From positions 1-64,000 of the IMG/VR virus record IMGVR_UViG_3300042868_004707: a DNA stretch of 64,000 nt; one strand, given 5' to 3'. Below the pieces are notes generated by a model that was not told the DNA's origin, ran no database searches, and saw nothing but the letters and a program-made list of their open reading frames with translations. Of the stretch, positions 1 through 48,964 are shown piece after piece. The DNA comes from a virus. Both the position numbers and the translations under genes were made by a program. Position 1 is the first letter of the stretch; the number at the start of each line of letters is the position of its first letter.

Positions 1-771
1 ACAAGAGATGCTACAGATGAATTTGGTGTAATTACTAGAGTGTTTACAGATATATTACAAGATGCATACAAAGATTCAGGATTTAAAATTAAATATGAAG
101 CTGTAGTAACTAAGTTTATAGGAAGTGATGCAGAGATATACTATAATGAAATAAGACAGGTTAGAAGTAAAAACCTAACTGTTGTAAACACTATGGAGAT
201 ATCTATTGCAGAGAAGATTGTAGAACAACTTAGAATCAATAGCACTACAGCACCTATTGTAAATCTTACAAATAGCTCTAGATATCAAATTATCGATCAA
301 ATGCAAGTGGAAGGATATGATGTAGATGGACATTTGTTTAAATCTATGCTTGATAAAGTGATAATTGACCATAAGGAGAAAGTGGTTATGCCATACGATC
401 TTAAATGCACATGGAGTGTAGAAAACTTCTATGAAGAGTATTACTTGTATAGAAGAGCATACATCCAAGCATATTTATATTATTATGCAATGTTGCATAT
501 AGTAAGTGATCCAGAAAGTGAATGCTATGGATATAGAGTGGAATACTTGAAGTTTATTGTATGTGATAGCACAAACTATTACAGACCATTAATTTACACT
601 CTTGACATGGATGATATGATGGATGCATACAAAGGATTTGTACACAAAGGAAGAACTTATCCAGGAGTGGGAGAGTTGATAGCAGCATTGAAATGGTGTA
701 GAGAAACAAACACATGGGATATAAGCCACAAAAATTATTTGTCTAATGGAGTAGTAAATATTAAAGGATAG
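1..771 (+). CDS. PD-(D/E)XK nuclease, RecB/Cas4-like (5' end outside window)
   Basis: The reading frame is open to the first base, so the true start lies upstream; the first in-window start would be GTG at 40. The core reads LDKVIID, then about 15 residues on MPYDLKC, which fits the D...(D/E)xK active site of PD-(D/E)XK nucleases. QAYLYYYAM about 30 residues further on fits the QxxxY motif of RecB/Cas4-like exonucleases. Crass-like phages carry conserved PD-(D/E)XK genes in the replication block, so a role in DNA end processing or recombination beside RecA is likely. It ends 3 bases before the next gene. The family is fairly sure; the substrate is not known. Confidence 0.75.
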   Translation, partial: TRDATDEFGVITRVFTDILQDAYKDSGFKIKYEAVVTKFIGSDAEIYYNEIRQVRSKNLTVVNTMEISIAEKIVEQLRINSTTAPIVNLTNSSRYQIIDQMQVEGYDVDGHLFKSMLDKVIIDHKEKVVMPYDLKCTWSVENFYEEYYLYRRAYIQAYLYYYAMLHIVSDPESECYGYRVEYLKFIVCDSTNYYRPLIYTLDMDDMMDAYKGFVHKGRTYPGVGELIAALKWCRETNTWDISHKNYLSNGVVNIKG

Positions 772-774
772 AAT

Positions 775-1341
775 ATGGAGATTAAAAAGAATATAACTAG
801 CATATTTATGGTGCCCACTCTCAAGGTGCCTAAAGATGCTCTTAGAGGAAATGGTTTTATTAATGCATATATAAAAGATGCAAGAAAAGAAGACCAGTAT
901 AAAGGATGTGTTTATTTATTATTTAAACCTGAAAACTTAGATAAGTTCAGAGAGTTCTTAGATAGTGAATATGAAAGAACAAAAGCAGTAATTGAAGATT
1001 ATGATTATGAAGATGGATATGTAGTGGTTGTTTATCAACTTGATGATAAATATAAAAATGATTTCACTTTAGTTCAAGGTGGTAAATATTCCAAGACATC
1101 TGCAAACTTTCAGAAATTATTTCCAAAGGTGGTTAAAATTACTAGAAATGGATTAAGTAAAGATGAAATATCATTACAATATAGAATCTTTAATAAAGCT
1201 GAAGACTTAATCAGTTTCTGGGAAACTAAACTAGGTATTGAATTTGAAGATGATTATGAAGTGTGGGATGGTTGGGATGAATCAAAAGAAATTTTAGAAC
1301 TTGATAAAATAAAAGAATTATGTGTAACAGAGAAATCTTAG
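775..1341 (+). CDS. Hypothetical protein, 188 aa
   Basis: I do not recognise this protein. It is soluble, with no membrane segment, and rich in Lys, Asp and Glu. The middle contains KYSKTSANFQKLFPK, and the C-terminal third is acidic and Trp-rich (FEDDYEVWDGWDE). ATG at 775 follows the TAG of the nuclease gene by 3 bases, so the two are probably co-transcribed. Its 3' end overlaps the next gene by 22 bases. The position next to nuclease and RecA genes suggests a DNA-metabolism accessory role, but nothing in the sequence shows a catalytic site. Confidence 0.7.
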   Translation: MEIKKNITSIFMVPTLKVPKDALRGNGFINAYIKDARKEDQYKGCVYLLFKPENLDKFREFLDSEYERTKAVIEDYDYEDGYVVVVYQLDDKYKNDFTLVQGGKYSKTSANFQKLFPKVVKITRNGLSKDEISLQYRIFNKAEDLISFWETKLGIEFEDDYEVWDGWDESKEILELDKIKELCVTEKS

Positions 1342-1520
1342 AAATTATTGTAGAAGAAGTGGGTTTAGAAAAAGCTACTGAATTCTGTAACTTAGTAAGT
1401 CTAATGTATGACATTAGATATAATGCCTGTAAAGACCTTGAACCACTCAATGAACTTGATTTTGAAAGAGATTGGTGGAAGATGGCAGAAATAGAATTAA
1501 AAGAAAATTTAAAAAAATAA
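1320..1520 (+). CDS. Hypothetical protein, 66 aa
   Basis: A small acidic, probably helical protein with MxxIxxxxLKENLKK-type amphipathic C-terminal residues. ATG at 1320 lies inside the end of the preceding gene (22-base overlap), and the TAA is followed by a single base before the next ATG at 1522, so it sits in a tightly packed operon. No known motif is seen. The start is the only ATG near the N-terminus. The packing makes it a likely real gene despite its size. Confidence 0.6.
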   Translation: MCNREILEIIVEEVGLEKATEFCNLVSLMYDIRYNACKDLEPLNELDFERDWWKMAEIELKENLKK

Positions 1521-1521
1521 T

Positions 1522-1914
1522 ATGGAAACACTAAAATTATTAGAAAAATACCCTCTATCTACAGAAGTGGTTAGAGAATGGTTCATTAACAAAATGGTAG
1601 AGTCTGTAAAAGGAGATGATACAGTTCCTGAAGACTTCAAAAATTACATGTTAGAACAAGGAATTCCAAATGACAAACTTTGTATATTTATAGATTCAAG
1701 TCCTCGTAGTTTATTTGATGCGTTTGATGAGAATAATGTTATTATAATAATCAAATATCATGACAACTTTGGATTTACTTGGGCTGTAGAAGAAGCAGAT
1801 GACCAATCTTTTTATAAAACAAGAAAAGAATCAGAAATATTTGCTATAGAAGCAGCATTTGAAATATTAGAACAACAATTAACCCATAAAGAAAACACTG
1901 ATGAGAACGAGTAA
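1522..1914 (+). CDS. Hypothetical protein, 130 aa
   Basis: Unrecognised soluble protein. The N-terminal half is helical with alternating charged residues; the centre has a beta-like run (NNVIIIIKYHDNFGFTWAV) followed by an acidic helix. It begins 1 base after the previous stop and overlaps the next gene by 14 bases. These overlaps are typical of the compact run of small genes between the nuclease and recA. No function can be assigned. Confidence 0.65.
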   Translation: METLKLLEKYPLSTEVVREWFINKMVESVKGDDTVPEDFKNYMLEQGIPNDKLCIFIDSSPRSLFDAFDENNVIIIIKYHDNFGFTWAVEEADDQSFYKTRKESEIFAIEAAFEILEQQLTHKENTDENE

Positions 1915-2239
1915 TGAATTTAATAATAAGTACAAAGAATACATAGAAGAAGATCATTATGGAATGGCTATCAATGATCCTTCTGTAATTGCTTATGTAG
2001 ATCAAATATTCAATGATCTTACACAGATTCCTGGATTCAAATATCAACAAATTAAAACTAAATTTGGTTTGGCCAGAGTGTACACAAACCTTGATGACCT
2101 TATGCCATTTGTTGGTAGAATAATTAATCAAGAGCTTGAAGAGAAAATTAACTTCATTCTTAAAGTAGAGTTTGAAGTGGAGAATAGATTAAAAAGTTTA
2201 AATTTAGATAAAGATGGAAAAACTATTCAACCAGTTTAA
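1901..2239 (+). CDS. Hypothetical protein, 112 aa
   Basis: Unrecognised soluble protein with predicted long helices, for example around residues 25-45 and the C-terminal LEEKINFILKVEFEVENRL region. It overlaps both neighbours (14 and 26 bases), consistent with translational coupling. It has no cysteine motif, signal peptide or membrane segment. Its place in a co-oriented run of small genes supports it being expressed, but not any particular role. Confidence 0.62.
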   Translation: MRTSNEFNNKYKEYIEEDHYGMAINDPSVIAYVDQIFNDLTQIPGFKYQQIKTKFGLARVYTNLDDLMPFVGRIINQELEEKINFILKVEFEVENRLKSLNLDKDGKTIQPV

Positions 2240-2474
2240 AAACATGTTAGTTGTATATCCAAAATATAAAGGGTATGTTTGTGGATATAATGATGCACAT
2301 TTTATTATTGCTGTTGAAACAAAAGATGATAAGAACTTCTTTAGAAAAATGGAAAATCCATACATCATGGATGAGTATAAAGATGTTAAATACAGATACA
2401 CCTTTGCAGATGAATCACAGCTAATAAAACAATCTAACAATGACAAATATAAGAAAGCTATCAATAAAGACTAA
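2214..2474 (+). CDS. Hypothetical protein, 86 aa
   Basis: Small basic and acidic mixed protein without recognised motif. The centre (YVCGYNDAHFIIAVETKDD) looks like a short beta sheet. ATG at 2214 lies inside the end of the previous gene (26-base overlap); its own end overlaps the next small gene by 35 bases. A function cannot be inferred; the overlaps on both sides favour a real gene. Confidence 0.6.
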   Translation: MEKLFNQFKNMLVVYPKYKGYVCGYNDAHFIIAVETKDDKNFFRKMENPYIMDEYKDVKYRYTFADESQLIKQSNNDKYKKAINKD

Positions 2475-2619
2475 GTTACTAATATATGAATACAAAGAAA
2501 AGTATCCAGCAGTAACAGCTGAACACATCTCAGATTTGTTTGATCTTCAATTAGCAGCTGTAGTAAAATTATTCAGAGAAGGAGAAATAACTGTTCCTTC
2601 TAGGATTAATGAAAAATAA
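2440..2619 (+). CDS. Small helix-turn-helix-like protein, 59 aa
   Basis: A 59-codon reading frame starting at ATG 2440 inside the previous gene and ending at TAA 2617-2619. The product has a basic N-terminus and then VTAEHISDLFDLQLAAVVKL, which has the spacing of a helix-turn-helix: a helix, a short turn, and a second amphipathic helix. GEITVP after it resembles a wing. It may be a small transcription regulator or DNA-binding partner at the end of this operon. The evidence is only the pattern and the gene packing, so confidence is moderate. Confidence 0.55.
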   Translation: MTNIRKLSIKTKLLIYEYKEKYPAVTAEHISDLFDLQLAAVVKLFREGEITVPSRINEK

Positions 2620-2650
2620 GTTGTAGATTGCGATATGAAATTTACAAGTT

Positions 2651-2815
2651 ATGGCAAAGAAAGATTTTATACAACATGTAGATTACTATCTAGAAGAAGG
2701 TAGAATCATATTCACAGAAAAATACTTAAAGCAAAAAGGATTTTGCTGTGGTGGGCAATGTAGACATTGTCCTTATACAGAAAGATCAAAAAATAATACT
2801 GAGTTAAAAAAATAA
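2651..2815 (+). CDS. DUF5522-like small cysteine protein, 54 aa
   Basis: ATG 2651 to TAA 2813-2815; an in-frame TGA just upstream fixes this start. The product contains GFCCGGQCRHCPY (Cys32, Cys33, Cys37, Cys40), the signature I know from DUF5522, a short bacterial family of unknown function expected to bind metal. The first 30 residues fit the usual FxxxGxxxFTExYLxxxG lead. It is the last gene before the terminator at 2845-2870. A phage copy of this bacterial family probably came by transfer; its function is unknown. Confidence 0.72.
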   Translation: MAKKDFIQHVDYYLEEGRIIFTEKYLKQKGFCCGGQCRHCPYTERSKNNTELKK

Positions 2816-2844
2816 TTTCTGTTCTGTTTTTAATTGTTGAGAAG

Positions 2845-2870
2845 GCCCTGAAGAAATTCGGGGCTTTTTT
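2845..2870 (+). terminator. Rho-independent terminator
   Basis: GCCCTGAA (2845-2852) pairs with TTCGGGGC (2857-2864) around a GAAA tetraloop, with one G-T pair, followed by six T (2865-2870). This ends the operon of small genes before recA. Confidence 0.85.
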
Positions 2871-2882
2871 ATCCTCAATAGG

Positions 2883-2914
2883 TTAGGAAATAAGCAGAAA
2901 AATCGTTATCTTTA
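2883..2914 (+). promoter_or_regulatory. Candidate promoter for recA (TTAGG...TATCTTTA)
   Basis: TATCTTTA at 2907-2914 is one base from the Bacteroidota -7 element TAnnTTTG. TTAGG at 2883-2887 lies 19 bases upstream, in the place of the -33 TTTGG. It follows a terminator and precedes recA at 2936. The same TATCTTTA element stands upstream of 48964 and 59118 on the minus strand. Confidence 0.5.
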
Positions 2915-2935
2915 AACATTAAAAACAATTAAATA

Positions 2936-4015
2936 ATGGCAAAAACAGTAAAAGCAAAAGAAACTAATAGTAAGTTTCAAGAAGCAATGGACAAATTGAA
3001 CAAGACTTATGGTGTTGGTTCAATATTAGCATTAGACTCTAAAACAGGAGGAGATTATGATGTAATCAGTACAGGTAGTATTGGTTTTGATCACATCACT
3101 CTTGGTGTAGGAGGATTTGTAAAAGGTAAACTTTATGAATTGATGGGCTGGGAAGGCACAGGTAAATCTACAATCTGTGGACATGCTGCAGCAGAATGTC
3201 AAAAAGCAGGAGGTACTGTATTGTATATCGATGGTGAGCATGCTGTTGATAAGAATTATTTTAAACAGTTAGGAGTGGATACAACTAAGATGTTGATTTC
3301 TCAACCATCATGTGGTGAGGAAGGATTTAACATTGCTATGGAAATGATTAACACTGGAGAGATTGATCTTGTAATAATAGATAGTGATTCATCATTGATT
3401 CCTAAGAAGATGTTAGATGGTGATGTAGGTGATTCTACAATAGGTAGAAAAGCTTTATTGAACAGTAATGCCTATCCAAAACTTAAGGGTGCTCTATCAC
3501 AACACAATACATGTGTCATCGTAATATCCCAATATAGAGAGAAGATTGGTGTTATGTTTGGTAATCCTACAACAACTCAGGGTGGTCATGCTCTTAAATT
3601 CTATGCAGATGTTCGTATAGAAGTGTCTAGAACTCTTGCAAAAGATGGTGATGTAAACTATGGTAATATTACTAAGTTAAAAGCTATCAAGAACAAGATG
3701 TCTCCACCATATAGAAAATCAGAGTTTGAAATAGTGTATGGAGTGGGTATAGACAAACTTGATGAGATGATGAGTCTTCTTAATGAGTTTGAATTAGGAC
3801 GTAAGTATGGTAAGACAATGACTGTTGATGGTGTTAAATATGATTTAGAAGAATTCAAACAATTAGTTATTGACAATCCAGAATTCTATGATGAATTAAA
3901 AGAGAAGATTGTAGCTAAGATTAATGAAACTGATCTTCCTGTAGAGGAAATAGAAGTAGAAGAAGATGTTGTTCCACAAGTTTCAACACCAACTAATTTA
4001 TTTGATGAAATATGA
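2936..4015 (+). CDS. recA: RecA-type recombinase
   Basis: ATP-dependent strand-exchange protein for homologous recombination and repair of phage DNA. At 359 aa it is the length of a bacterial RecA. Walker A GWEGTGKST lies at residues 71-79; the Walker B strand is DLVIIDSDS. The RecA signatures DGEHAVD, ISQPSCGEE, SQYREKIGVMFGNP and GGHALKFYADVR are all present, so this is closer to bacterial RecA than to T4 UvsX. The C-terminus is acidic, as in RecA. It starts a new transcription unit after a terminator and overlaps the kinase gene by 4 bases (ATGA). Confidence 0.93.
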   Translation: MAKTVKAKETNSKFQEAMDKLNKTYGVGSILALDSKTGGDYDVISTGSIGFDHITLGVGGFVKGKLYELMGWEGTGKSTICGHAAAECQKAGGTVLYIDGEHAVDKNYFKQLGVDTTKMLISQPSCGEEGFNIAMEMINTGEIDLVIIDSDSSLIPKKMLDGDVGDSTIGRKALLNSNAYPKLKGALSQHNTCVIVISQYREKIGVMFGNPTTTQGGHALKFYADVRIEVSRTLAKDGDVNYGNITKLKAIKNKMSPPYRKSEFEIVYGVGIDKLDEMMSLLNEFELGRKYGKTMTVDGVKYDLEEFKQLVIDNPEFYDELKEKIVAKINETDLPVEEIEVEEDVVPQVSTPTNLFDEI

Positions 4016-4692
4016 TAATAGGTATAAACGGTAAGATAGGTTCTGGAAAGGACACTATTGGTGATATTATTCAGAAGATATGTATTACAAATGATGGACC
4101 AGAATTTGAAGTGAAGAAGTTTGCAGGGAAGCTAAAACAAATAGCTTCTCTGTTAACTGGTATTCCTGTAAAGAAATTTGAAGATCAAGAATTTAAAAAA
4201 TCTTTATTAGGAGATGAATGGGGAACAGTGAAAGAAAATCCTTTAAACTCTATTCCTGTATTTGAAGATGTTCAGTTTAATCATCTAATGAGCGTAAGAG
4301 AACTTCTTCAAAAGCTTGGTACAGAAGCAATGCGTGATGGATTACATGAGAATGTATGGGTGAATGCTTTGTTTGCTGATTATAAAGCAAAATGGGTTCC
4401 TACAGGAGATGCTATTGAAGAAGATGAAGTTTCTCTTGAGAAAGAATATCCTAATTGGATTATTACAGACATGAGATTTCCTAATGAATTAGAAGCTATT
4501 GAGTTAAGAGAAGGCATCACTATTAGAGTGGTTAGACCAGATATGCATTCTTTACAAGCAATGGTTCCAACTCATGCAAGTGAAACAGCTCTTGATGATG
4601 CTGAGTTTGATTATGAAATCATCAATGACGCTGGAATACCAGAATTAATTGAAAAAGTTCGTGAAATACTTGTTATTGAAAAAATTATATAA
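4012..4692 (+). CDS. Deoxynucleoside monophosphate kinase
   Basis: Phosphorylates dNMPs to dNDPs for phage DNA synthesis, as T4 gene 1 product does. The P-loop GKIGSGKDT is at residues 7-15. RELLQKLGTEAMRDGLHENV and WIITDMRFPNE fit the dNMP kinase family (substrate and lid regions). It overlaps recA by 4 bases. Its last 23 codons (from ATC at 4621) are duplicated in diverged form at 5320-5391, after the next gene. This suggests that the present C-terminus was brought in with the neighbouring homing endonuclease. Confidence 0.82.
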   Translation: MIIGINGKIGSGKDTIGDIIQKICITNDGPEFEVKKFAGKLKQIASLLTGIPVKKFEDQEFKKSLLGDEWGTVKENPLNSIPVFEDVQFNHLMSVRELLQKLGTEAMRDGLHENVWVNALFADYKAKWVPTGDAIEEDEVSLEKEYPNWIITDMRFPNELEAIELREGITIRVVRPDMHSLQAMVPTHASETALDDAEFDYEIINDAGIPELIEKVREILVIEKII

Positions 4693-4701
4693 TACCTTTG
4701 T
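4670..4701 (+). promoter_or_regulatory. Bacteroidota-type promoter (TTG-N21-TACCTTTG)
   Basis: TTG at 4670-4672 and TACCTTTG at 4694-4701 match the TTG...TAnnTTTG consensus with a 21-base spacer. It overlaps the end of the kinase gene and lies 20 bases before the endonuclease start, so the mobile gene appears to carry its own promoter. Confidence 0.65.
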
Positions 4702-4721
4702 TTTAAATAAAACAAAAAACA

Positions 4722-5327
4722 ATGGACTATTTAAAAGGTAACAGTAATGCATGGATAGATATTTCTAACAAGAAGTATGGAAGGTTAACTGTTTTAGGCT
4801 ATGTTGGAAATGGTAAATGGGAATGCGTATGTGAATGTGGTAATAAAAAAGTTTTAAAAACTGGAAAAATTACCACTTTACATACAAAATCTTGTGGATG
4901 TCTTTCTAAAACTAATGCATTAAAACATGGTGGAATAGGCTCAAGAGAATATAATATTTGGGCAAACATGAAAGCAAGGTGTAATAATATTAATAATACA
5001 TCATACAAAAACTATGGTGGTAGAGGTATTACTATATGTGATGAGTGGAATAATTCTTTTGAAAAATTTATAGGAGATATGGGACCTTGTCCAAAAAATT
5101 ACTCTATAGATAGAATAAATAATGAATTAGGATATTCTAAAGATAACTGTAAATGGTCTTCTAATAAAGAGCAATCATTAAATAGAAGAAGTAATTTTAT
5201 AATTACACACAATGGTATAACTAAGCCATTAAAAGAAATGTGTGAAATTTTTAAAAAAGATTATAAAAAAACTTTTGCAAGATTGTCTACATTAGGATGG
5301 TCAGTAGAAAAAGCTTTCAATCAATGA
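4722..5327 (+). CDS. HNH homing endonuclease with AP2-like region
   Basis: The N-terminal part has a zinc-binding pattern CVCECGNKK...KSCGCL. The HNH part follows with RCNNINNTSYKNYGGRGI, CDEW and SIDRINNELGY...NCKWSS, as in the HNH/AP2 family common in phages. The C-terminal ITHNGITKPLKEM segment looks like a DNA-binding NUMOD/AP2 region. A relative with the same order of motifs is at 48302-48964. It is free-standing, with its own promoter, and sits between two versions of the dNMP kinase 3' end. Its stop codon lies inside the repeated kinase sequence ATCAATGA. Confidence 0.85.
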   Translation: MDYLKGNSNAWIDISNKKYGRLTVLGYVGNGKWECVCECGNKKVLKTGKITTLHTKSCGCLSKTNALKHGGIGSREYNIWANMKARCNNINNTSYKNYGGRGITICDEWNNSFEKFIGDMGPCPKNYSIDRINNELGYSKDNCKWSSNKEQSLNRRSNFIITHNGITKPLKEMCEIFKKDYKKTFARLSTLGWSVEKAFNQ

Positions 5328-5391
5328 TGGAACTATAGAAGATCTCATAGAAAAAGTAAAAGAAATATTAATTAAAGAACAAATAATTTAA
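5320..5391 (+). pseudogene. Displaced 3' end of dNMP kinase gene
   Basis: Read from ATC at 5320, 23 codons then TAA give INDGTIEDLIEKVKEILIKE plus QII. The intact kinase ends with 23 codons from 4621 reading INDAGIPELIEKVREILVIE plus KII. Fifteen of 23 residues agree and the lengths are identical. There is no start codon, so this is a remnant of the kinase 3' end left downstream of the inserted endonuclease gene. Confidence 0.8.
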
Positions 5392-5446: not shown

Positions 5447-6052
5447 ATGAAAGAACAGATTTTATTAGGAACATTATTAGGAGATGCTTCAATATCAAAA
5501 CTTATTGATAGAAGAAAAACTTATTCTATAAGATGGGAACATTGTTTAGAGCAAGAAGAATATGCATTATGGAAAGCAGATAATAGTTTAGATAATTATT
5601 CTATTTATAAAAGAGATAGATTAGATAGTAGAACAGGTAATATATATAAATCTATTACCTGTTACTCTACTAAAGATGATTATAAATACTATAGAAATTT
5701 ATTTTATAAAGAATCTAAAGAAGTAAATCAAGAAATACTTAATATGTTGCAACCTTTAGGTATAGCTGTTTGGTTTATGGATGATGGTAATTTATACTAT
5801 AATGGTAACAGTTGTCATTTGACATTGTCTGTCAATGGTTTTGATGATAATTCTATAAATAGAATAATAGAATATTTTAAGAACACTTATAATATTTATT
5901 TTAAGAAAAGTGGTAGAGCAATTAGAATAACATCAGTTAAACAAGTTTTATTATTTGAATCATACTTTAAACAATATTATCATTATTCAATGATGTATAA
6001 AACATTAATTTATAATAAAGAAAAACATGCAAGAAATAAAAAAGAAAGGTAG
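5447..6052 (+). CDS. LAGLIDADG homing endonuclease
   Basis: Two LAGLIDADG motifs are visible: ILLGTLLGDASI (residues 5-16) and GIAVWFMDDGNL (residues 105-116). The second carries the DD-G core. About 200 aa is right for a single-chain two-motif enzyme. It makes a site-specific double-strand break that drives its own spread. It directly follows the HNH endonuclease and kinase remnant, so two unrelated mobile endonucleases are stacked between the kinase and phosphatase genes. The last 26 bases overlap the phosphatase reading frame. Confidence 0.85.
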   Translation: MKEQILLGTLLGDASISKLIDRRKTYSIRWEHCLEQEEYALWKADNSLDNYSIYKRDRLDSRTGNIYKSITCYSTKDDYKYYRNLFYKESKEVNQEILNMLQPLGIAVWFMDDGNLYYNGNSCHLTLSVNGFDDNSINRIIEYFKNTYNIYFKKSGRAIRITSVKQVLLFESYFKQYYHYSMMYKTLIYNKEKHARNKKER

Positions 6053-6815
6053 AACAATGGTCTGTGGAGACATTCATGGATCCAATAAAGCTCTTCTCCA
6101 AGTGTTAGAAAAAAGTGGGTTTGACAAAGAGTCAGACCTGCTTATTTCTTTAGGAGATGTAGCTGATGGATGGAATGAAGTTCCTGAATGTGTAGACACA
6201 TTGTTGTCTATAAAGAATCTGATTGCTATACGTGGTAATCATGATGTTTGGTGTTATGATTGGTTTGAAATGGGTGCTACACCACTTATTTGGACACAAC
6301 AAGGTGGCCAAGCTACACTTGATGCATATGTACGTGCAGGTAAAATGACTGAATACTCTCATAAAGCATTCTGGAAAAATCAAGTTGACTGGTATATAGA
6401 TGATGAGAATAGATTGTTTATACATGCTGGATGGGATTATACATTAACACCTATTGAACTTAGTGTTGGAAATGTTTCTGATAGAACAATGTTTGAGTTA
6501 CAAGCAAATGCATCTGTTAATGCAGGAAGCATTGCTAAAGAATGTCATTGGGACAGAAGTGTGTTATCAGGAGCTCGTTCAGCTTTTGGTGATAAGAATA
6601 GACCAGGTAAGTTTAAAGCTCTTGAACAGTTCAAAGAGATCTATATAGGCCATACAGCAATGAATGGAGAACCAAGACAATTTGGAAACCTATGGAACTT
6701 AGATACAGGTGCTGGATGGAATGGTCAGTTAACTATTATGGATATAGATAGTAAAGAATTCTGGCAAAGTGATAACGTTAAGGAGTTACATCCTGACCAA
6801 TTAGGAAGATTCTAA
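6027..6815 (+). CDS. Calcineurin-like phosphoesterase (lambda phosphatase type)
   Basis: Metal-dependent phosphatase with the motif order GDIHG (residues 14-18), GDVADG and GNHD, then distal His residues in FIHAGW and IGHTAMNG. This is the serine/threonine protein phosphatase branch known from phage lambda. ATG at 6027 keeps the first beta strand (GRTMVCGDIHG); ATG at 6057 would remove it, so the overlapping start is preferred. The 26-base overlap with the LAGLIDADG gene suggests the endonuclease inserted right against its 5' end. The substrate is unknown. Confidence 0.85.
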   Translation: MQEIKKKGRTMVCGDIHGSNKALLQVLEKSGFDKESDLLISLGDVADGWNEVPECVDTLLSIKNLIAIRGNHDVWCYDWFEMGATPLIWTQQGGQATLDAYVRAGKMTEYSHKAFWKNQVDWYIDDENRLFIHAGWDYTLTPIELSVGNVSDRTMFELQANASVNAGSIAKECHWDRSVLSGARSAFGDKNRPGKFKALEQFKEIYIGHTAMNGEPRQFGNLWNLDTGAGWNGQLTIMDIDSKEFWQSDNVKELHPDQLGRF

Positions 6816-7274: not shown

Positions 7275-7667
7275 ATGAGACATTACGGTGAATTAGAAGC
7301 TCTTGTTATAGCATGGGCAGCACAGAAAGGTATTCTAGAGAATGGAACACCAAGAGCACAAGCTGGTAAAACAGAAGAAGAAGTGCAAGAACTTATTGAT
7401 GCAATCGATACAGATAATAGAGTAGAAGTGATTGATGCTCTAGGAGATATTCTAGTAACCATCATCATCCAAGCAGAAATGCAAGGACTGAAGCTTACAG
7501 AATGTTTAGAGAGTGCGTACAATGTAATCTCTAAGCGTACAGGGGTCATGAAAGATGGACAATTTCACAAGGATGATGCAAAAGAAATGATTCCTCCTAT
7601 TTCTGGAGGAGTAAGAACTGTTACTGATCATATTGATTTTGTTATCAAAAATCAATCACACACATAA
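7275..7667 (+). CDS. mazG: MazG-like nucleotide pyrophosphohydrolase
   Basis: Hydrolyses nucleoside triphosphates to monophosphates; phage MazG proteins are thought to adjust nucleotide or alarmone pools. The metal-binding helices are visible: EEEVQE at residues 34-39 and EVIDALGD at 51-58, matching EExxE...ExxD. The length is that of a single-domain MazG. It overlaps the following HNH gene by one base. Placement among kinase, phosphatase and PhoH genes fits nucleotide metabolism. Confidence 0.82.
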   Translation: MRHYGELEALVIAWAAQKGILENGTPRAQAGKTEEEVQELIDAIDTDNRVEVIDALGDILVTIIIQAEMQGLKLTECLESAYNVISKRTGVMKDGQFHKDDAKEMIPPISGGVRTVTDHIDFVIKNQSHT

Positions 7668-8080
7668 TGAAATGTAAAGTATGTGGAAAGAACGCAGACA
7701 GTGAATATTGTTTTGCTCATAAATCTAGAAAGCCCTTGCCATCATCTGGTAAGGGCTTAAATACTAGAATGTCTAGTATTTCATACAATAAGGCTAAAAA
7801 TGTCCATAATAACGGACACATCATGCAAAGAGAGATGTTTCTTGCTATATGGAAGAAGAGACCACATAGATGTGAGAATTGCGATGCATACTTAGGAAGT
7901 GAACCATTATCATATATGTTTGATCATGTTTTAGAGAAATCTAAATATCCAGATCTTAGATATGAAGAAGAAAACATATGTATGTTATGTTTAGATTGCC
8001 ATAGTGATAAAACTAACTGTAACTTAAGTGATTTTATGAAAGAAAAAATAAAAAAAGTCAAAGAAATATTTGGAAAATAA
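7667..8080 (+). CDS. HNH endonuclease with zinc-binding cysteines
   Basis: N-terminal CKVC...YCFAH and a later CENC...CLDC give two zinc-binding pairs. The HNH core is MFDHVLEKSKYPDLR followed by ENICMLCLDCH. This resembles phage recombination-type HNH enzymes rather than the HNH/AP2 homing family, since it lacks AP2 and NUMOD parts. It starts on the last base of the mazG gene (shared A of TAATG), so it looks like a resident operon member. It may cut branched or replicating DNA. Confidence 0.75.
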   Translation: MKCKVCGKNADSEYCFAHKSRKPLPSSGKGLNTRMSSISYNKAKNVHNNGHIMQREMFLAIWKKRPHRCENCDAYLGSEPLSYMFDHVLEKSKYPDLRYEEENICMLCLDCHSDKTNCNLSDFMKEKIKKVKEIFGK

Positions 8081-8100
8081 TATTATACTTCTTACCTTTG
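8069..8100 (+). promoter_or_regulatory. Bacteroidota-type promoter (TTTG-N20-TACCTTTG)
   Basis: TTTG at 8069-8072 and TACCTTTG at 8093-8100 with a 20-base spacer. The endonuclease ATG is only 4 bases downstream, which would give a leaderless or nearly leaderless transcript. Confidence 0.6.
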
Positions 8101-8104
8101 TCAT

Positions 8105-8347
8105 ATGAATGAGAAATACTATTTATACAGACATATAAGACTTGATAAGAATGAACCATTTTATATTGGAATTGGTACTAAAACTAATGCTGATATAAAA
8201 TATGGTACATATACTAGAGCTAACATCAAGAGTAAAAAAAATAATGTTTGGGTAAAAATAACTAATAAAACTAGTTATATAGTTGAGATTCTTATTGAAT
8301 CAGATGATTATGATTTTATTAAAAAAAAAAGAAATAGAGTTTGTTAA
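8105..8347 (+). CDS. GIY-YIG homing endonuclease, N-terminal part (frame broken)
   Basis: The first 80 residues carry the GIY-YIG nuclease start: YYLYRHIRLDKNEPFYIGIG, then RANIKSKKNNVWVKI and SYIVEIL. The frame ends soon after a run of ten A at 8321-8330. Removing one A joins it to the downstream frame and gives ...DFIKKKEIEFVKLYGR, the expected continuation. So this is the front half of one endonuclease gene disrupted by a one-base shift. It could be decay, a homopolymer sequencing error, or a slippage site. Confidence 0.75.
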   Translation: MNEKYYLYRHIRLDKNEPFYIGIGTKTNADIKYGTYTRANIKSKKNNVWVKITNKTSYIVEILIESDDYDFIKKKRNRVC

Positions 8348-9038
8348 ACTTTATGGGAGAATAGATTTAAAAACAGGAACATTAACTAATATGACTGATG
8401 GAGGAGAAGGTGCTACAAATGTTATTGTATCAGAACATTCCAGACAACTCAGAAGAGGATTTCAAACTGGAAAAAAGAAAACTCAAGAAAGTATAGATAA
8501 AAGATTAGCTACATTAAAGAAAAATGGATTTAAACTTTCTGATGATTCTAAAAGAAAAATCAGTTTAACTAAATCTAAATCTGTATTACAATATTCATTA
8601 GAAGGAATTTTAATTAAACAATGGAATACTGTAATAGAAGCATCTGAAGAATTAGGCATTCCAAAAACATCTATTACTCAATGTGCAAATTACAATGAAA
8701 GAAAAACCTTCACTGGATTTAATTATATTTGGTTATATCTAGAAGATTTTAATTCTAATAAACTAGATAAATTTAATATAGCTCTAACTAGAGTTCAAGA
8801 AGGTAAAATTAAATCTTTTATAACTATAAATAAAAAGTTAGAAATTATAGAAGATTATAAAAAAATATATAATACCTTTGTTAAAAAGGAGGACAAGTTG
8901 AAGTACTTAGAATTAAAACATAACATAAACTATAGTACAATACGAGCTATAGTTTCTAATGTTGAGAACGACATGTACAGATATGAAGAGGTAAATAAAA
9001 GACGTAATTATTTACTAACCAAATATGAAAGAACCTAA
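8283..9038 (+). CDS. GIY-YIG homing endonuclease, C-terminal part with NUMOD1 and HTH
   Basis: After the A10 run this frame continues the GIY-YIG domain (EIEFVKLYGRIDLKTGTL, TNMTDGGEG). A NUMOD3-like stretch follows (KKTQESIDKRL...LSDDSKRKISLTKSK), then NUMOD1 (LQYSLEGILIKQWN...ASEELGIPKTSI) and a C-terminal helix-turn-helix (LKHNINYSTIRAIVSN). These are the DNA-binding parts of such enzymes. The first residues from ATG 8283 to the A-run are out of frame and not part of the native protein. The end overlaps the PhoH gene by 14 bases. Confidence 0.72.
   Translation: MRFLLNQMIMILLKKKEIEFVKLYGRIDLKTGTLTNMTDGGEGATNVIVSEHSRQLRRGFQTGKKKTQESIDKRLATLKKNGFKLSDDSKRKISLTKSKSVLQYSLEGILIKQWNTVIEASEELGIPKTSITQCANYNERKTFTGFNYIWLYLEDFNSNKLDKFNIALTRVQEGKIKSFITINKKLEIIEDYKKIYNTFVKKEDKLKYLELKHNINYSTIRAIVSNVENDMYRYEEVNKRRNYLLTKYERT
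8873..8900 (+). promoter_or_regulatory. Internal TACCTTTG element with strong ribosome site
   Basis: Inside the endonuclease frame there is TACCTTTG (8873-8880), then AAAGGAGG (8885-8892) 5 bases before an in-frame TTG at 8898. Strong Shine-Dalgarno sites are rare here. It could give a separate 46-residue helix-turn-helix product or transcribe phoH. A TTG at the right distance upstream is not seen. Confidence 0.4.
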
Positions 9039-9672
9039 CAGGGAAAGAAAGGGTGAGATTAAATATAATATCACTCTTAACGAAGAACAAAAGCTTGCTA
9101 AAGAATTGATTATTAACAATCAGATAGTCATTGTAACTGGTAGAGCTGGAAGTGGTAAGTCATTAATATGTGCTCAATCAGCTTTAGACTTCTTGATGAA
9201 AAAACAATGTAATCATGTTTATGTCACTAGAGCTACAATTGAAGTGGGTGGATCATTAGGATTTTTACCAGGAGATCTAGAAGACAAATTCAATCCTTAC
9301 TTAGAAGCTTTTCAAGAAAACCTTGAGAAGTGCTATGATAAAGTGAAGATTGGTGAACTTGTTAAGAACAAAAAAATCTTAGCATATCCTGTACAGTTTA
9401 TTAGAGGAAAGACAATTGATGATGTTCTTGTTGTAGAAGAAGCACAAAATCTAACTAAAGGAGAAATGTTAGCTATTCTAACAAGACTTGGTAAAACAGG
9501 TAAAATCATCATTAATGGTGACAATGAGCAAAAGGATATTAAAGAATCCTACACAGGACTTTCTTATGCTATTGAACTCTCTAAGAAGATAGAAGGTATA
9601 GAATGGATTAAACTTAAAGCAAACCACAGAAGTGATCTTGTGGGTAAAATATTAGACCTAGAATATAATTAA
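9025..9672 (+). CDS. phoH: PhoH-like ATPase
   Basis: P-loop ATPase of the PhoH family, related to the RecD/SF1 helicase core and frequent in phages. Walker A is GRAGSGKS; the family signatures RATIEVGGSLGFLPGD and VVEEAQNLTKGEM (Walker B with EEAQ) are clear, and IINGDNEQKD and LKANHRSD follow. It starts 14 bases before the end of the endonuclease gene. It may act on RNA or under phosphate stress; its exact role in phages is not settled. One base separates it from thioredoxin. Confidence 0.88.
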   Translation: MKEPNRERKGEIKYNITLNEEQKLAKELIINNQIVIVTGRAGSGKSLICAQSALDFLMKKQCNHVYVTRATIEVGGSLGFLPGDLEDKFNPYLEAFQENLEKCYDKVKIGELVKNKKILAYPVQFIRGKTIDDVLVVEEAQNLTKGEMLAILTRLGKTGKIIINGDNEQKDIKESYTGLSYAIELSKKIEGIEWIKLKANHRSDLVGKILDLEYN

Positions 9673-9673
9673 C

Positions 9674-9937
9674 ATGAGTGTAGAAGTATTAAAATTTAGT
9701 GCAACATGGTGTGGCCCATGTAGAGTGTTATCTGAAACACTAAAAGGAGTTGAAGGTATTACCAATATCGATATTGATAAAGATATGGAAATAGCTAGAC
9801 AACATAATGTAAGAAATGTTCCTACATTAGTATTTAAGAAAGATGGAAAAGAAGTTCATAGAATTTCTGGATCTATTCCGTTACATACATATAATGGAAT
9901 TTTAGATGAGATTAACTTCTCAGGTAAAGACGAATAA
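9674..9937 (+). CDS. Thioredoxin-like protein
   Basis: An 87-residue thioredoxin fold with active site WCGPC (residues 12-16) and the cis-proline loop NVPTLV. It is shorter than bacterial thioredoxin (about 105 aa), lacking part of the N-terminal strand. Likely roles are electron donor to ribonucleotide reductase or redox folding. It follows phoH by one base and precedes a conserved small gene, so all are probably in one transcript. Confidence 0.85.
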   Translation: MSVEVLKFSATWCGPCRVLSETLKGVEGITNIDIDKDMEIARQHNVRNVPTLVFKKDGKEVHRISGSIPLHTYNGILDEINFSGKDE

Positions 9938-9952
9938 TTAAAAACAAGTAAT

Positions 9953-10231
9953 ATGAGAAACCAATTTTTTTACACAGCCAAGATTGGCGACAAAGAGTAT
10001 TTAGCCTCTTTAAACGTTAACAAAATCATTAGAACATTAGCTAATGATGCAGGAGGATTAATAATCATCTTAGATGACTTCAATGAGAGAGTTACAGAAC
10101 AACCAGACATTGATTTAAAGACTAACAAGATGAAAGGATTCAAAAAAGTTCGTGAAACTGTACAATCAGAGATTGAACTAAACGCTGAAGATGCACAAAA
10201 ATTTATTAAACTAACTGAATACAAAGGATAA
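9953..10231 (+). CDS. Conserved phage protein, 92 aa, unknown function
   Basis: The pattern MRNQFFYTAKIGDKEYLASL, then NKIIRTL, IILDDFNE and ETVQSEIELNAEDAQKF, resembles a short protein I recall from many phages of Bacteroidota. No catalytic motif is visible. It is an alpha/beta soluble protein with no membrane segment. It is spaced 15 bases from thioredoxin and 2 from the GroES-like gene, suggesting co-expression. Function unknown. Confidence 0.68.
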   Translation: MRNQFFYTAKIGDKEYLASLNVNKIIRTLANDAGGLIIILDDFNERVTEQPDIDLKTNKMKGFKKVRETVQSEIELNAEDAQKFIKLTEYKG

Positions 10232-10233
10232 AA

Positions 10234-10524
10234 ATGGCAAAGTTATTAGGAAACCGCATCTATTTAGAGATGCCAAAGAAAGAAGAGAGTAAGCTTATTG
10301 TAGATGAGAATACAAAAGAAGCATTACAGAAAGAACTACTTAAGAAAATGAGTAGATTGAAAGTGCACAGTGTAGGAACAGCTATTACAGATCCAGATCT
10401 TGTTATTGGTTGTGAAGTGTTAGTAGATCCTACAGCATTGAGAGATAAAACATTAATCATTCCTTTATCAGAGAATGAAGATGTTATGTTAGTTTCTATA
10501 TTTGACATTGTACATATTTGGTAA
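10234..10524 (+). CDS. GroES-like co-chaperonin candidate
   Basis: At 96 aa it has the size of GroES and its pattern: an N-terminal strand GNRIYLEMP, a variable loop rich in charge, HSVGTAI, then GCEVLVDP and a last strand pair DVMLVSIFDIVHIW that matches the GroES ending (VLIMSESDILAIVE). T4 gp31 shows that phages may supply their own GroES-like lid for capsid protein folding. The mobile loop region (SKLIVDENTKEAL) is less typical, so this is an inference from overall pattern. Confidence 0.45.
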   Translation: MAKLLGNRIYLEMPKKEESKLIVDENTKEALQKELLKKMSRLKVHSVGTAITDPDLVIGCEVLVDPTALRDKTLIIPLSENEDVMLVSIFDIVHIW

Positions 10525-10525
10525 T

Positions 10526-11281
10526 ATGGAATATCCTTTCATTAGTTGCAAATGTATAACCTATGGAAGAGTAGATACTCTGGAGGAAGCTATTCAAAGT
10601 TTCCTCCTACAAGAGTATCCAGGTAAGAAAGAACTTATTATAGTTAATGACTACCCTCTACAAAAATTGGTATACGATCATCCAGAAATAAAAATTTATA
10701 ATATGGATGAAACATTCTCTACTATTGGAGAGAAAGAAAACTATGCTATAGAGAGATGTTCTGGAGAACTTATTGCTGTATGGGATGATGATGATGTAGC
10801 ATTAAGCAATCATTTATCTAACATAGCTAAGTTTTGGAAACCAAACACTAATCTGTTACATTGGCAAAATGGTGTCTTCTATAATGAACCTAACATAACA
10901 CAATTGATGGCTCTTGGTAACTCAGGTATTGTATATAGCAAAAAAGCTTGGGAAGAAATTGGTAAGAGTCCAATAGAGAATGCTGGTGGAGATATGACAT
11001 TAGTTGTAGCTATTCATAACTTAGGAAGAGATAAAGTGGTATTAGCTGATCCTCCTAACGCAGAGTGTTCTTGGTTTTATATGTGGGGCGGTAGAGGATA
11101 TCATCAATCAGGCATGGGAACAGACACTGCAGATAGACCTAATGTTATACAAAGACATAGTCAATATGTAGAACAATTAAGAACAAAAGGATTGATTCCT
11201 ACAGGAGATGTTCATCTAAATCCTCATTGGAACAAAGACTATTCACAAATGCTAAAAGATTATATCAATGCAAATAAATAG
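10526..11281 (+). CDS. Family 2-like glycosyltransferase
   Basis: GT-A fold enzyme: N-terminal ISCKCITYGRVDTLEEAIQS, LIIVNDYP and the metal-binding VWDDDDVAL. A later GGDMTL and conserved Trp and His residues fit the acceptor side. An upstream ATG at 10502 would overlap the previous gene and add eight residues unlike the family; ATG 10526, right after that gene's TAA, gives the expected first strand. It is followed by a methyltransferase and a second glycosyltransferase with 14- and 10-base overlaps. Target could be virion protein, DNA or cell surface sugar. Confidence 0.78.
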   Translation: MEYPFISCKCITYGRVDTLEEAIQSFLLQEYPGKKELIIVNDYPLQKLVYDHPEIKIYNMDETFSTIGEKENYAIERCSGELIAVWDDDDVALSNHLSNIAKFWKPNTNLLHWQNGVFYNEPNITQLMALGNSGIVYSKKAWEEIGKSPIENAGGDMTLVVAIHNLGRDKVVLADPPNAECSWFYMWGGRGYHQSGMGTDTADRPNVIQRHSQYVEQLRTKGLIPTGDVHLNPHWNKDYSQMLKDYINANK

Positions 11282-46799: not shown

Positions 46800-48305
46800 T
46801 TATTGGTATTTGTCCATCCAGCCTCCTGGTTGTTTTGTATTATAGTTTGTAAAATTAGTTAATTGGTTTAGTTTTACCAACTCTTTTCCATCTTTTGCTA
46901 ATGGATATTTTTTATCTTCAAAGTTTTCAATTGAATCTTGATTTTCAGAAATAGTATTTAGTAAATGAATCATTTGAGTTTCATCATATATCGAATTTAA
47001 ATCTAAAGCTTCTTGTGGTAAAATATCTTTGTTGTTAAACAATTCTTTAAATTTATTTTTATCTATTTTTTCAGTAAAAGGGTCATATATTTTATTTTCT
47101 TTTGCAAATTTTCTAATAACATTAAGTCTAGCTCTTGTTTCAGTTGGAGTAGTAAAATATTTAATTTTTTCATCACTCATTAAATTTAAATTTTTTACAT
47201 TAGCTTTACTTTTTGAGTCTAATCTTTTATACATTGCTGTATCTTTATATGAAGCAGGTGTATATTTTTTAATAAGCTCAATATCATCTGATGGAATTAA
47301 TCTATCTGACGAATTATAAAAAAATCCAGGAATTGAAGCATCTGTAGCATGTGAGATTTCATGTGGTATGGTTCCAGAATACTCATAAGGCATTGTAGAT
47401 TTATAAAAATTTAAAACTCCAGTATTAGGATTTGCATGAGCACTTTCTCCTTTAGTACCATATTCTTCATTAGGTCTTCTTATTAATGTTTTTTTATTTT
47501 TAATTAGTGTTTGTAACTGTTTGTTTCTATCTTCTTCATATCCATAATCAAACCAATCACTTTTTGTAGAATTTTTCAACATTTGTTTGTACATAGGAGA
47601 AGCTTGCCAATTTTTAAAATATTCTAAACTTTTATCAACTTCATTATTAAAATTAGCATTATCTACTTTATTTCCATCTTGAGCAATAGGAAACTCTGTC
47701 ACCTTCTTTCCTTTGAATTTATATTCTTCTTCTGGATACATCATCTGTGTATCACCTGTATCTGATATACCAAGAACAGGATAAGGTACACCTTGCATTG
47801 TTATGTATGGAGAATCTATTTCTGTTATCTCTCCTGGATGAGCCCATTGTCCTCTGTCATCTTTAATAACTTTTCCACTCTTAGCACTAGCCATTGTTTT
47901 CTTTGCATAAGGACCATTGCTTGGAGCAGGATTGTTTGTACGTGCATATGAGAAACCTACAGCTCCTGGAATAGAACCACCCATTTGTGCTTGAGGAACA
48001 TAGTTAACTGGATATACAGATCCACCCATTTGAAACTGCCCTCCCCATGCAGGAGAATAATCTCTACCTTTGGTATCATATCCTTCACCTACATATCCTT
48101 CTGGTAAAGAAACAGAATTATCATTATAGTTCTCTTGGTGTTCTTGCATAGATCCACCATCAGCATAGCTATCTAACCAACCACCATTTTTCATGTTGTT
48201 AGAATTATCTCTACCACACTCATGACATACATACATGTCTTTCTTACTAGAATCAGATTTGTTCCAGCTCCATCCGCATGTACATTTTACTTTACTACTA
48301 CTCAT
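46800..48305 (-). CDS. Zincin metallopeptidase virion protein, 501 aa
   Basis: N-terminal zinc ribbon with Cys8, Cys10, Cys27 and Cys30. The middle carries QAQMGGSIPG, WAHPGEITEIDSPYITMQGV and FPIAQDGNK, a module repeated in related phages. The C-terminal half has IPHEISHATDAS (His315-His319, Asp322), the HExxHxxD zinc site of zincin peptidases. It is in the tail/ejection block, so it may cut the cell wall on entry or process a virion protein. It overlaps the HNH gene by 4 bases. Confidence 0.75.
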   Translation of the reverse strand: MSSSKVKCTCGWSWNKSDSSKKDMYVCHECGRDNSNNMKNGGWLDSYADGGSMQEHQENYNDNSVSLPEGYVGEGYDTKGRDYSPAWGGQFQMGGSVYPVNYVPQAQMGGSIPGAVGFSYARTNNPAPSNGPYAKKTMASAKSGKVIKDDRGQWAHPGEITEIDSPYITMQGVPYPVLGISDTGDTQMMYPEEEYKFKGKKVTEFPIAQDGNKVDNANFNNEVDKSLEYFKNWQASPMYKQMLKNSTKSDWFDYGYEEDRNKQLQTLIKNKKTLIRRPNEEYGTKGESAHANPNTGVLNFYKSTMPYEYSGTIPHEISHATDASIPGFFYNSSDRLIPSDDIELIKKYTPASYKDTAMYKRLDSKSKANVKNLNLMSDEKIKYFTTPTETRARLNVIRKFAKENKIYDPFTEKIDKNKFKELFNNKDILPQEALDLNSIYDETQMIHLLNTISENQDSIENFEDKKYPLAKDGKELVKLNQLTNFTNYNTKQPGGWMDKYQ

Positions 48306-48964
48306 TCTTTTTTATTTTTATAAGTGAATGATTTTTCTACACTCCAATTATTTAATCTTGCTAATAATCTTTTATAAGGAATGTTTAATTCATCTGACCA
48401 TTCACTTACAGTTTTAGTAATACCATCATATTCAATATATCTACTTCTCCTGGTATTATTCATATTTTGTTTTCTAGTAATCCATCTACAATTATCTGGT
48501 TCATAATTACCATTAACATTAATTCTATCTAATTCTAAACCTTCTTTATATGTTGAATACATATCTGATAAAAAATTATTAATATCTTTCCATCTATCAC
48601 AAACAGTAATCCCTCTTCCACCATAATTATAATAACCAAAATCATTAGGGTCATTACATCTTCTAATCATTGCTGCCCAAGTTTTATACAAACGATGTTT
48701 TCTATATCCATGAATTTTATTTTTAAATCCTTGTTGTTGTATTTTATTATCTCTCAAACATCCACAAGATTTAGTATTACCATTTTTAACTGCTAATATT
48801 ATACAGTCAAATTTTTTTCCACAATTACATTGAAAGGTAGCACATCTTTTAGTTGTTTTACTTTTATTAGTTTTTGTTACTTCAAATACTATTGGACTTG
48901 TTTCTTTTATAAATATACAAGTCCCTATTATATCTCCTTTTTTATATTCTACTTTCTGTCTCAT
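48302..48964 (-). CDS. HNH homing endonuclease with AP2-like region
   Basis: Relative of the gene at 4722-5327: FQCNCGKKFD...TKSCGCL, then TWAAMIRRCNDPNDFGYYNY, GGRGITVCDRW and LELDRINVNGNYEPDNCRW, followed by YDGITKTVSEW and LLARLNNWSVEKSF. The shared C-terminus includes ARLxxxWSVEKxF. It lies between two virion genes and overlaps the downstream one by 4 bases. It appears to have its own promoter of the TATCTTTA type. Confidence 0.85.
   Translation of the reverse strand: MRQKVEYKKGDIIGTCIFIKETSPIVFEVTKTNKSKTTKRCATFQCNCGKKFDCIILAVKNGNTKSCGCLRDNKIQQQGFKNKIHGYRKHRLYKTWAAMIRRCNDPNDFGYYNYGGRGITVCDRWKDINNFLSDMYSTYKEGLELDRINVNGNYEPDNCRWITRKQNMNNTRRSRYIEYDGITKTVSEWSDELNIPYKRLLARLNNWSVEKSFTYKNKKE

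Follow-up and report, generated by a model that had tools for sequence, protein, structure and literature searches.

Selfish endonuclease genes are usually tolerated because they lie between genes or within introns or inteins that are spliced out. A further arrangement has been described in fungal mitochondria. In atp6 of Allomyces macrogynus, and in atp6, atp9, cox2 and nad3 of Glomus sp., a foreign gene end, an endonuclease gene and the native gene end follow one another in that order, and the native copy is the one closest to relatives (PMC3630166). In phage T4, the endonucleases that have been reviewed are intronic, intergenic or gene-splitting, and a search of that review for duplication found nothing in its text on a replacement end with a relic (PMC2988022). 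The nearest functional analogue in T4 is mobA with the 50-nt bypass insert of gene 60 (PMC5009743).

Here we describe a viral DNA stretch of 64,000 nucleotides (positions 1 to 64,000 of IMG/VR record IMGVR_UViG_3300042868_004707; hereafter the window) in which a putative HNH endonuclease ORF is flanked by two versions of the end of one gene, a dNMP kinase. The coordinates of the features are listed in Table 1. A preliminary description of this DNA had likened the layout to Allomyces atp6 and knew of no phage case. The comparison holds well, and four Glomus mitochondrial genes have this layout too (PMC3630166). Our literature search, with limited open-access coverage, likewise found no precedent for a relic with a replacement end in a phage. 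The window kinase is not unique, however, as other genes in this phage group are also affected.

Table 1. Features of the window around the two replaced gene ends.
Feature	Position	Strand	Evidence and remarks
dNMP kinase gene, chimeric	4012-4692	+	Pfam DNMK 3.4e-12; PHROG 139 1.2e-49; L028 identity profile
Apparently foreign kinase body and 3' end	4062-4692	+	Left edge between 4026 and 4062
Tail 1, probable kinase C-terminus in use	4621-4692	+	Encodes INDAGIPELIEKVREILVIEKII, then stop; allele of L016/L118/L120
HNH homing-endonuclease-like gene	4722-5327	+	PHROG 374, 2e-61; 201 aa
Probable right border of transferred block	5319-5333		Pattern of differences between window and L001
Tail 2, probable stranded 3' end of recipient kinase	5320-5391	+	Encodes INDGTIEDLIEKVKEILIKEQII, then stop; without start codon
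LAGLIDADG endonuclease gene	5447-6052	+	PF03161 3.8e-25; between relic and phosphoesterase
Metallophosphoesterase	6027-6815	+	PF00149 6.5e-12; 93.8% to L028
Second target gene, HNH-domain protein	7667-8080	+	PF01844 1.5e-5; 7832-8080 is the apparently foreign 3' end
GIY-YIG-like homing endonuclease gene	8105-8953	+	Sequence and translation; weak NUMOD1 match, E 0.028
Probable relic of second target's own 3' end	8954-9038	+	27 codons; 85/85 nt to L124

Two versions of the kinase 3' end

Tail 1, the closing 23 codons of the kinase gene, is matched by a second stretch downstream (tail 2), with 15 of 23 residues and 48 of 72 nucleotides identical. Both tails open with ATCAATGA, and 5320-5327 is the same as 4621-4628. 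The HNH gene lies between the two tails and ends at a TGA inside tail 2. The preliminary description had reported this duplication and the position of the endonuclease stop, and its coordinates and features were confirmed.

The ungapped BLOSUM62 score of the two tails is 70, compared with 26 for the runner-up match to tail 1 when the six frames of the window are scanned for 23-codon stretches free of stops (38,520 in total). None of 200,000 shuffled versions of tail 2 reached a score of 70, and the best-scoring pair among the ends of the 119 long ORFs scored 25. A chance resemblance of the tails is ruled out by these values. The tail is a C-terminal element of the kinase, as the alignment with T4 dNMP kinase (1dek) runs through it and places NDGSLEEL of the T4 enzyme against NDGTIEDL of tail 2. 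With tail 1, the kinase ORF is in frame and encodes 226 aa, so the inserted end completes the gene.

The protein encoded between the tails falls into the phage HNH endonuclease family PHROG 374 and was aligned with its homologues, of which there are 36 in viruses. It had no match among Pfam or NCBIfam models or among solved structures, and its probable identity as an HNH endonuclease is taken from the PHROGs and the homologue alignment. In the homologues, the C-terminus is GWSxERAL, and the equivalent stretch of the window protein is GWSVEKAFN, indicating that the last codon and the stop of the HNH gene are supplied by tail 2.

The native end and the borders of the foreign block

We compared the last 24 codons of 80 kinase loci from viral contigs, denoted by L-numbers, with both tails. 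There were 58 distinct kinase tails, and 43 of these were closer to tail 2, 3 were closer to tail 1 and 12 were tied. The tail of L028 agrees with tail 2 at 69 of 72 nucleotides and all 23 residues (67/68 nt between the window and L028 over 5320-5387), and the tail 2 type is also present in L035 and L057. The nearest match to tail 1 is L016 (62/72 nt, 86%; 22 of 24 codons including the stop), followed by the type found in L118, L120 and L121 (60/72 nt), which was recovered by a degenerate DNA search. The third tail closer to tail 1, in L046 and L048, has a different length and was not aligned in register (4 versus 3 residues). Since two of the three tails are true tail-1 alleles, tail 1 is a real minority allele that some phages lacking this insertion carry naturally; the native kind is represented by tail 2. 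The codon differences between tail 1 and L016, four synonymous and two other in this small sample, would be compatible with a tail in use.

The preliminary description had proposed that, if the tail was replaced, the kinase ends of relatives without the endonuclease should match tail 2 better, and the counts above and the tail of L028 agree with this. Empty loci that match tail 1 only, the outcome it named as contrary, were not found among close relatives. These comparisons clearly mark 5320-5391 as the relic and 4621-4692 as the imported end on which the kinase now relies.

L028 lies on one contig with a further locus, L124, and near both loci this contig is about 98-99% identical to the window. 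L028 carries no endonuclease gene, and its kinase is directly followed by the metallophosphoesterase, whose start overlaps the kinase stop. Between the window and L028, identity is 95-100% up to the first kinase codons and falls to about 70-80%, with indels, from 4062. The HNH gene region has no match in L028, and identity is back at 98.5% from 5320. The recipient sequence resumes exactly at tail 2, and the block is bounded, against L028, at about 4062 and 5319. The kinase is chimeric: its start, to about 4061, resembles the recipient L028, and the remainder is foreign, including 4201-4350, which is 100% identical to L057. This identity profile indicates that the foreign piece consists of most of the kinase and the HNH gene, and that the 23-codon relic is the remainder of the recipient kinase end. 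The earlier suggestion that the mobile gene brought a replacement tail and pushed the old tail downstream was supported, but the replaced stretch exceeds the tail and runs from about codon 18 of the kinase to its end. The exact donor of the kinase block was not among the relatives found.

A second strain, L001, carries the same block. From 12 to 5333, the window and L001 differ at only two sites (5021 and 5027), both within the HNH gene, and past 5333 there are six differences in 52 bases (5334, 5346, 5352, 5380, 5382 and 5385). The L001 relic matches the native tail of L057 at 70 of 72 nucleotides, and the window relic is L028-like. Thus, one block stands before two native alleles, with the change at the border between endonuclease and relic. 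This breakpoint pattern looks like a signature of homing, as it would be expected if the block had been copied into a break in the native tail.

The final bases of tail 2 have been changed by the next insertion. The LAGLIDADG gene is missing from L001 and L028, both of which run from the tail straight into the phosphoesterase, and it appears to be a later insertion beside the relic. The first phosphoesterase codons were also altered by the LAGLIDADG insertion.

Some other kinase loci have neighbors of their own. In L016, a NUMOD1-domain gene (699-1154), possibly an endonuclease remnant, lies directly 3' of the tail-1 type kinase. The 5' half is separated from the tail-1 type kinases of L118 (2294-2996, in reverse strand orientation) and L121 (5421-6123), and a small endonuclease-like ORF is found just upstream of the remaining part. 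In L057 (3980-6161), a GIY-YIG gene and two small genes split the kinase, the 3' half is a separate ORF and no Rfam intron was matched.

Other replaced gene ends in the window and in related phages

The second event in the window lies at 7667-9038. The target gene is 97% identical to L124 up to 7831 and then has no match; its 3' end from 7832 resembles the type found in L191-L193, with CHSDKT instead of HSNVEND. It is followed by the GIY-YIG-like endonuclease gene, and the relic of the target's own 3' end is fused in frame to the endonuclease C-terminus. The window is 98.97% identical to L124 over 8954-10998 and 100% identical over 8954-9200. The foreign stretch at 7832-8953 is a second event in the same window and against the same contig as L028. 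As judged from these borders, the GIY-YIG-like endonuclease appears to have done the same end replacement to its target gene. Comparing the window with itself misses this event because the two ends are too different, and it was seen only against relatives. The GIY-YIG-like frame is broken at a run of ten A residues (8321-8330; ORFs 8105-8347 and 8283-9038). The endonuclease may therefore be inactive or decayed, it may depend on slippage, or the break may be a sequencing error. Elsewhere in the window, two adjacent stretches on the - strand (47247-48318) have about 55 residues in common (49% identity) and are probably paralogous genes.

Comparison of the collected loci with themselves gave further cases. 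All the positive cases are metagenomic contigs, and each of the other cases, 3' or 5', was checked against a smaller set of relatives than the kinase. L122, an upstream locus of the L001 contig, comprises a gene of 77 aa whose tail is divergent, then a GIY-YIG endonuclease (TIGR01453, 83.8 bits, cut-off 56) and then a relic, which matches the intact gene of L034 at 28 of 28 residues. L011 and L019 have foreign tails that are alike at 19 of 20 amino acids and HNH genes that are 85% identical. Their relics match each phage's own kind (18/19 to L148 and 16/17 to the window, respectively).

Duplicated 5' ends were detected as well. In L022, L042 and L052, a DNA polymerase is affected: its stranded head is of the common FW(I/V)MDYET type, and an altered head begins the polymerase in use. 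In L120, the gene concerned is MazG-like; its stranded head, MKSYNELEALVIAWA, which relatives commonly have, forms a fusion with an HNH-type gene. An island common to L211 and L212 (1912-2645) contains a single difference and lies between flanks that are about 10% divergent. This island covers both the HNH gene and the altered head, together with the edge of the stranded one. From these comparisons, end replacement appears to recur in this phage group, at both 3' and 5' gene ends. No clean duplicated end was found at 12 HNH loci of cultured phages or in positions 1-50000 of T4, which suggests that end replacement is not the general rule for phage endonucleases.

Two further observations concern 5' ends. 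The HNH frame of L042 (344-967) starts at an ATG that lies out of frame within the stranded polymerase head. In L110 (2844-3589), the 5' end of a GMP reductase gene is present on both sides of an HNH gene, making this a candidate further case.

Proposed mechanism, alternatives and known systems

We consider it very likely that the HNH gene encodes a homing endonuclease of the free-standing type and moves as one block with the foreign 3' part of the dNMP kinase. The foreign block, the native relic, their polarity, the breakpoints and the repeated occurrence can all be read from the alignments. For the steps behind them we rely on the established double-strand-break repair model of homing (PMC2988022). 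The breakpoints suggest that the endonuclease would cut an uninterrupted kinase gene close to where the final 23 codons begin, with the cut or nick near ATCAATGATGGAAC in native kinase ends. Repair of the break from a donor would copy in the donor kinase 3' part and the endonuclease gene, giving the junctions seen in the window, and the recipient DNA to the right of the break would be retained. The kinase would stay complete through the foreign tail, with its own tail stranded as the relic, as is observed. Since the foreign tail differs at the target, it would be spared by the endonuclease, and the relic could act as the right homology arm for later rounds of homing. A mirrored scheme for 5' ends would account for the further insertions in this phage group.

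Another possible explanation is that ordinary homologous recombination swapped in a kinase with an already linked endonuclease gene, which would then not be the driver. Phage genomes are mosaic, and the foreign block takes in most of the kinase, as any recombination tract might. We think this is improbable because the right breakpoint falls at the border between endonuclease and relic in two strains and at a second locus, similar borders surround other endonucleases (L211 and L212), and the comparison with the empty relative reveals no long homology at the right border for a crossover. An assembly chimera is also unlikely, as the separate contig of L001 has the same junction; agreement among L212-L215, which are separate contigs, at another locus also counts against it.

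A local tandem duplication of the kinase 3' end, with the endonuclease inserted between the copies and drift thereafter, would explain why the copies are homologous and close together. Recent copies, however, would be expected to be near-identical, as opposed to the 48 of 72 nucleotides observed. The two alleles also exist separately, tail 1 in L016, L118 and L120 and tail 2 in L028, L035 and L057, and relatives with both tails but without the endonuclease are absent, making this account extremely improbable. We give hardly any credence to a group I intron that carries the endonuclease, in which case the true 3' exon would be 5320-5391 and tail 1 would be intron read-through. The endonuclease does have the location within a gene that is seen for intron endonucleases, and a native-like kinase would result from splicing to tail 2, but tail 1, which other kinases use, makes up a complete kinase C-terminus and ends in a stop of its own. 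No group I intron structure was matched by Rfam at a relaxed threshold in the window region and four loci.

If the homing model is correct, the endonuclease supplies a spare end for the gene that it breaks, a strategy documented in mitochondria. Sudden allele exchanges in phage core genes would then have an explanation at the genome level, and further cases can be sought by looking for a relic end beyond an endonuclease gene. As phages grow quickly and are easy to work with, direct tests are possible of where the cut falls, whether the new end is immune and what the relic does. We lean slightly toward the view that cut-resistant end replacement is a general route of phage endonucleases into conserved genes, a third one beside introns and inteins. 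It would be open to unrelated nuclease families and to both 3' and 5' ends, and would have been overlooked since annotation shows a complete gene beside an endonuclease gene.

The free-standing Seg and Mob endonucleases of T4, which carry out intronless homing, resemble the window in that there is no intron or intein and that flanking host-gene DNA is co-converted (PMC2988022). Unlike the window element, they are intergenic, cleave at a distance or divide a gene in two, as in nrdA/mobE and 39/60 (PMC2988022). In the window, the kinase end is replaced and a relic is left behind, in contrast to a T4-type intergenic endonuclease. With mobA and gene 60, as in the window, a conserved gene is invaded, a companion element is thought to protect against cleavage and the gene remains usable; in the T4 case, the companion is a translational bypass and belongs to a split gene, whereas the window has a divergent gene end in this role (PMC5009743). 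The HNH enzyme gp210 of PhiPA3 also targets a conserved phage gene, and recoding of the target blocks its action, but it resides in a putative self-splicing intron and hence needs no replacement end (PMC11620839). The fungal mobile ORF gene hybrids share with the window the arrangement of an endonuclease ORF between a foreign C-terminus in use and a displaced native C-terminus. In the window, too, the displaced copy matches close relatives without the element and the copy in use does not. The fungal hybrids are mitochondrial, with a LAGLIDADG enzyme in the atp6 example and 3' ends in the described cases, whereas the cases here are in tailed-phage DNA, involve HNH and GIY-YIG enzymes and include 5' ends.
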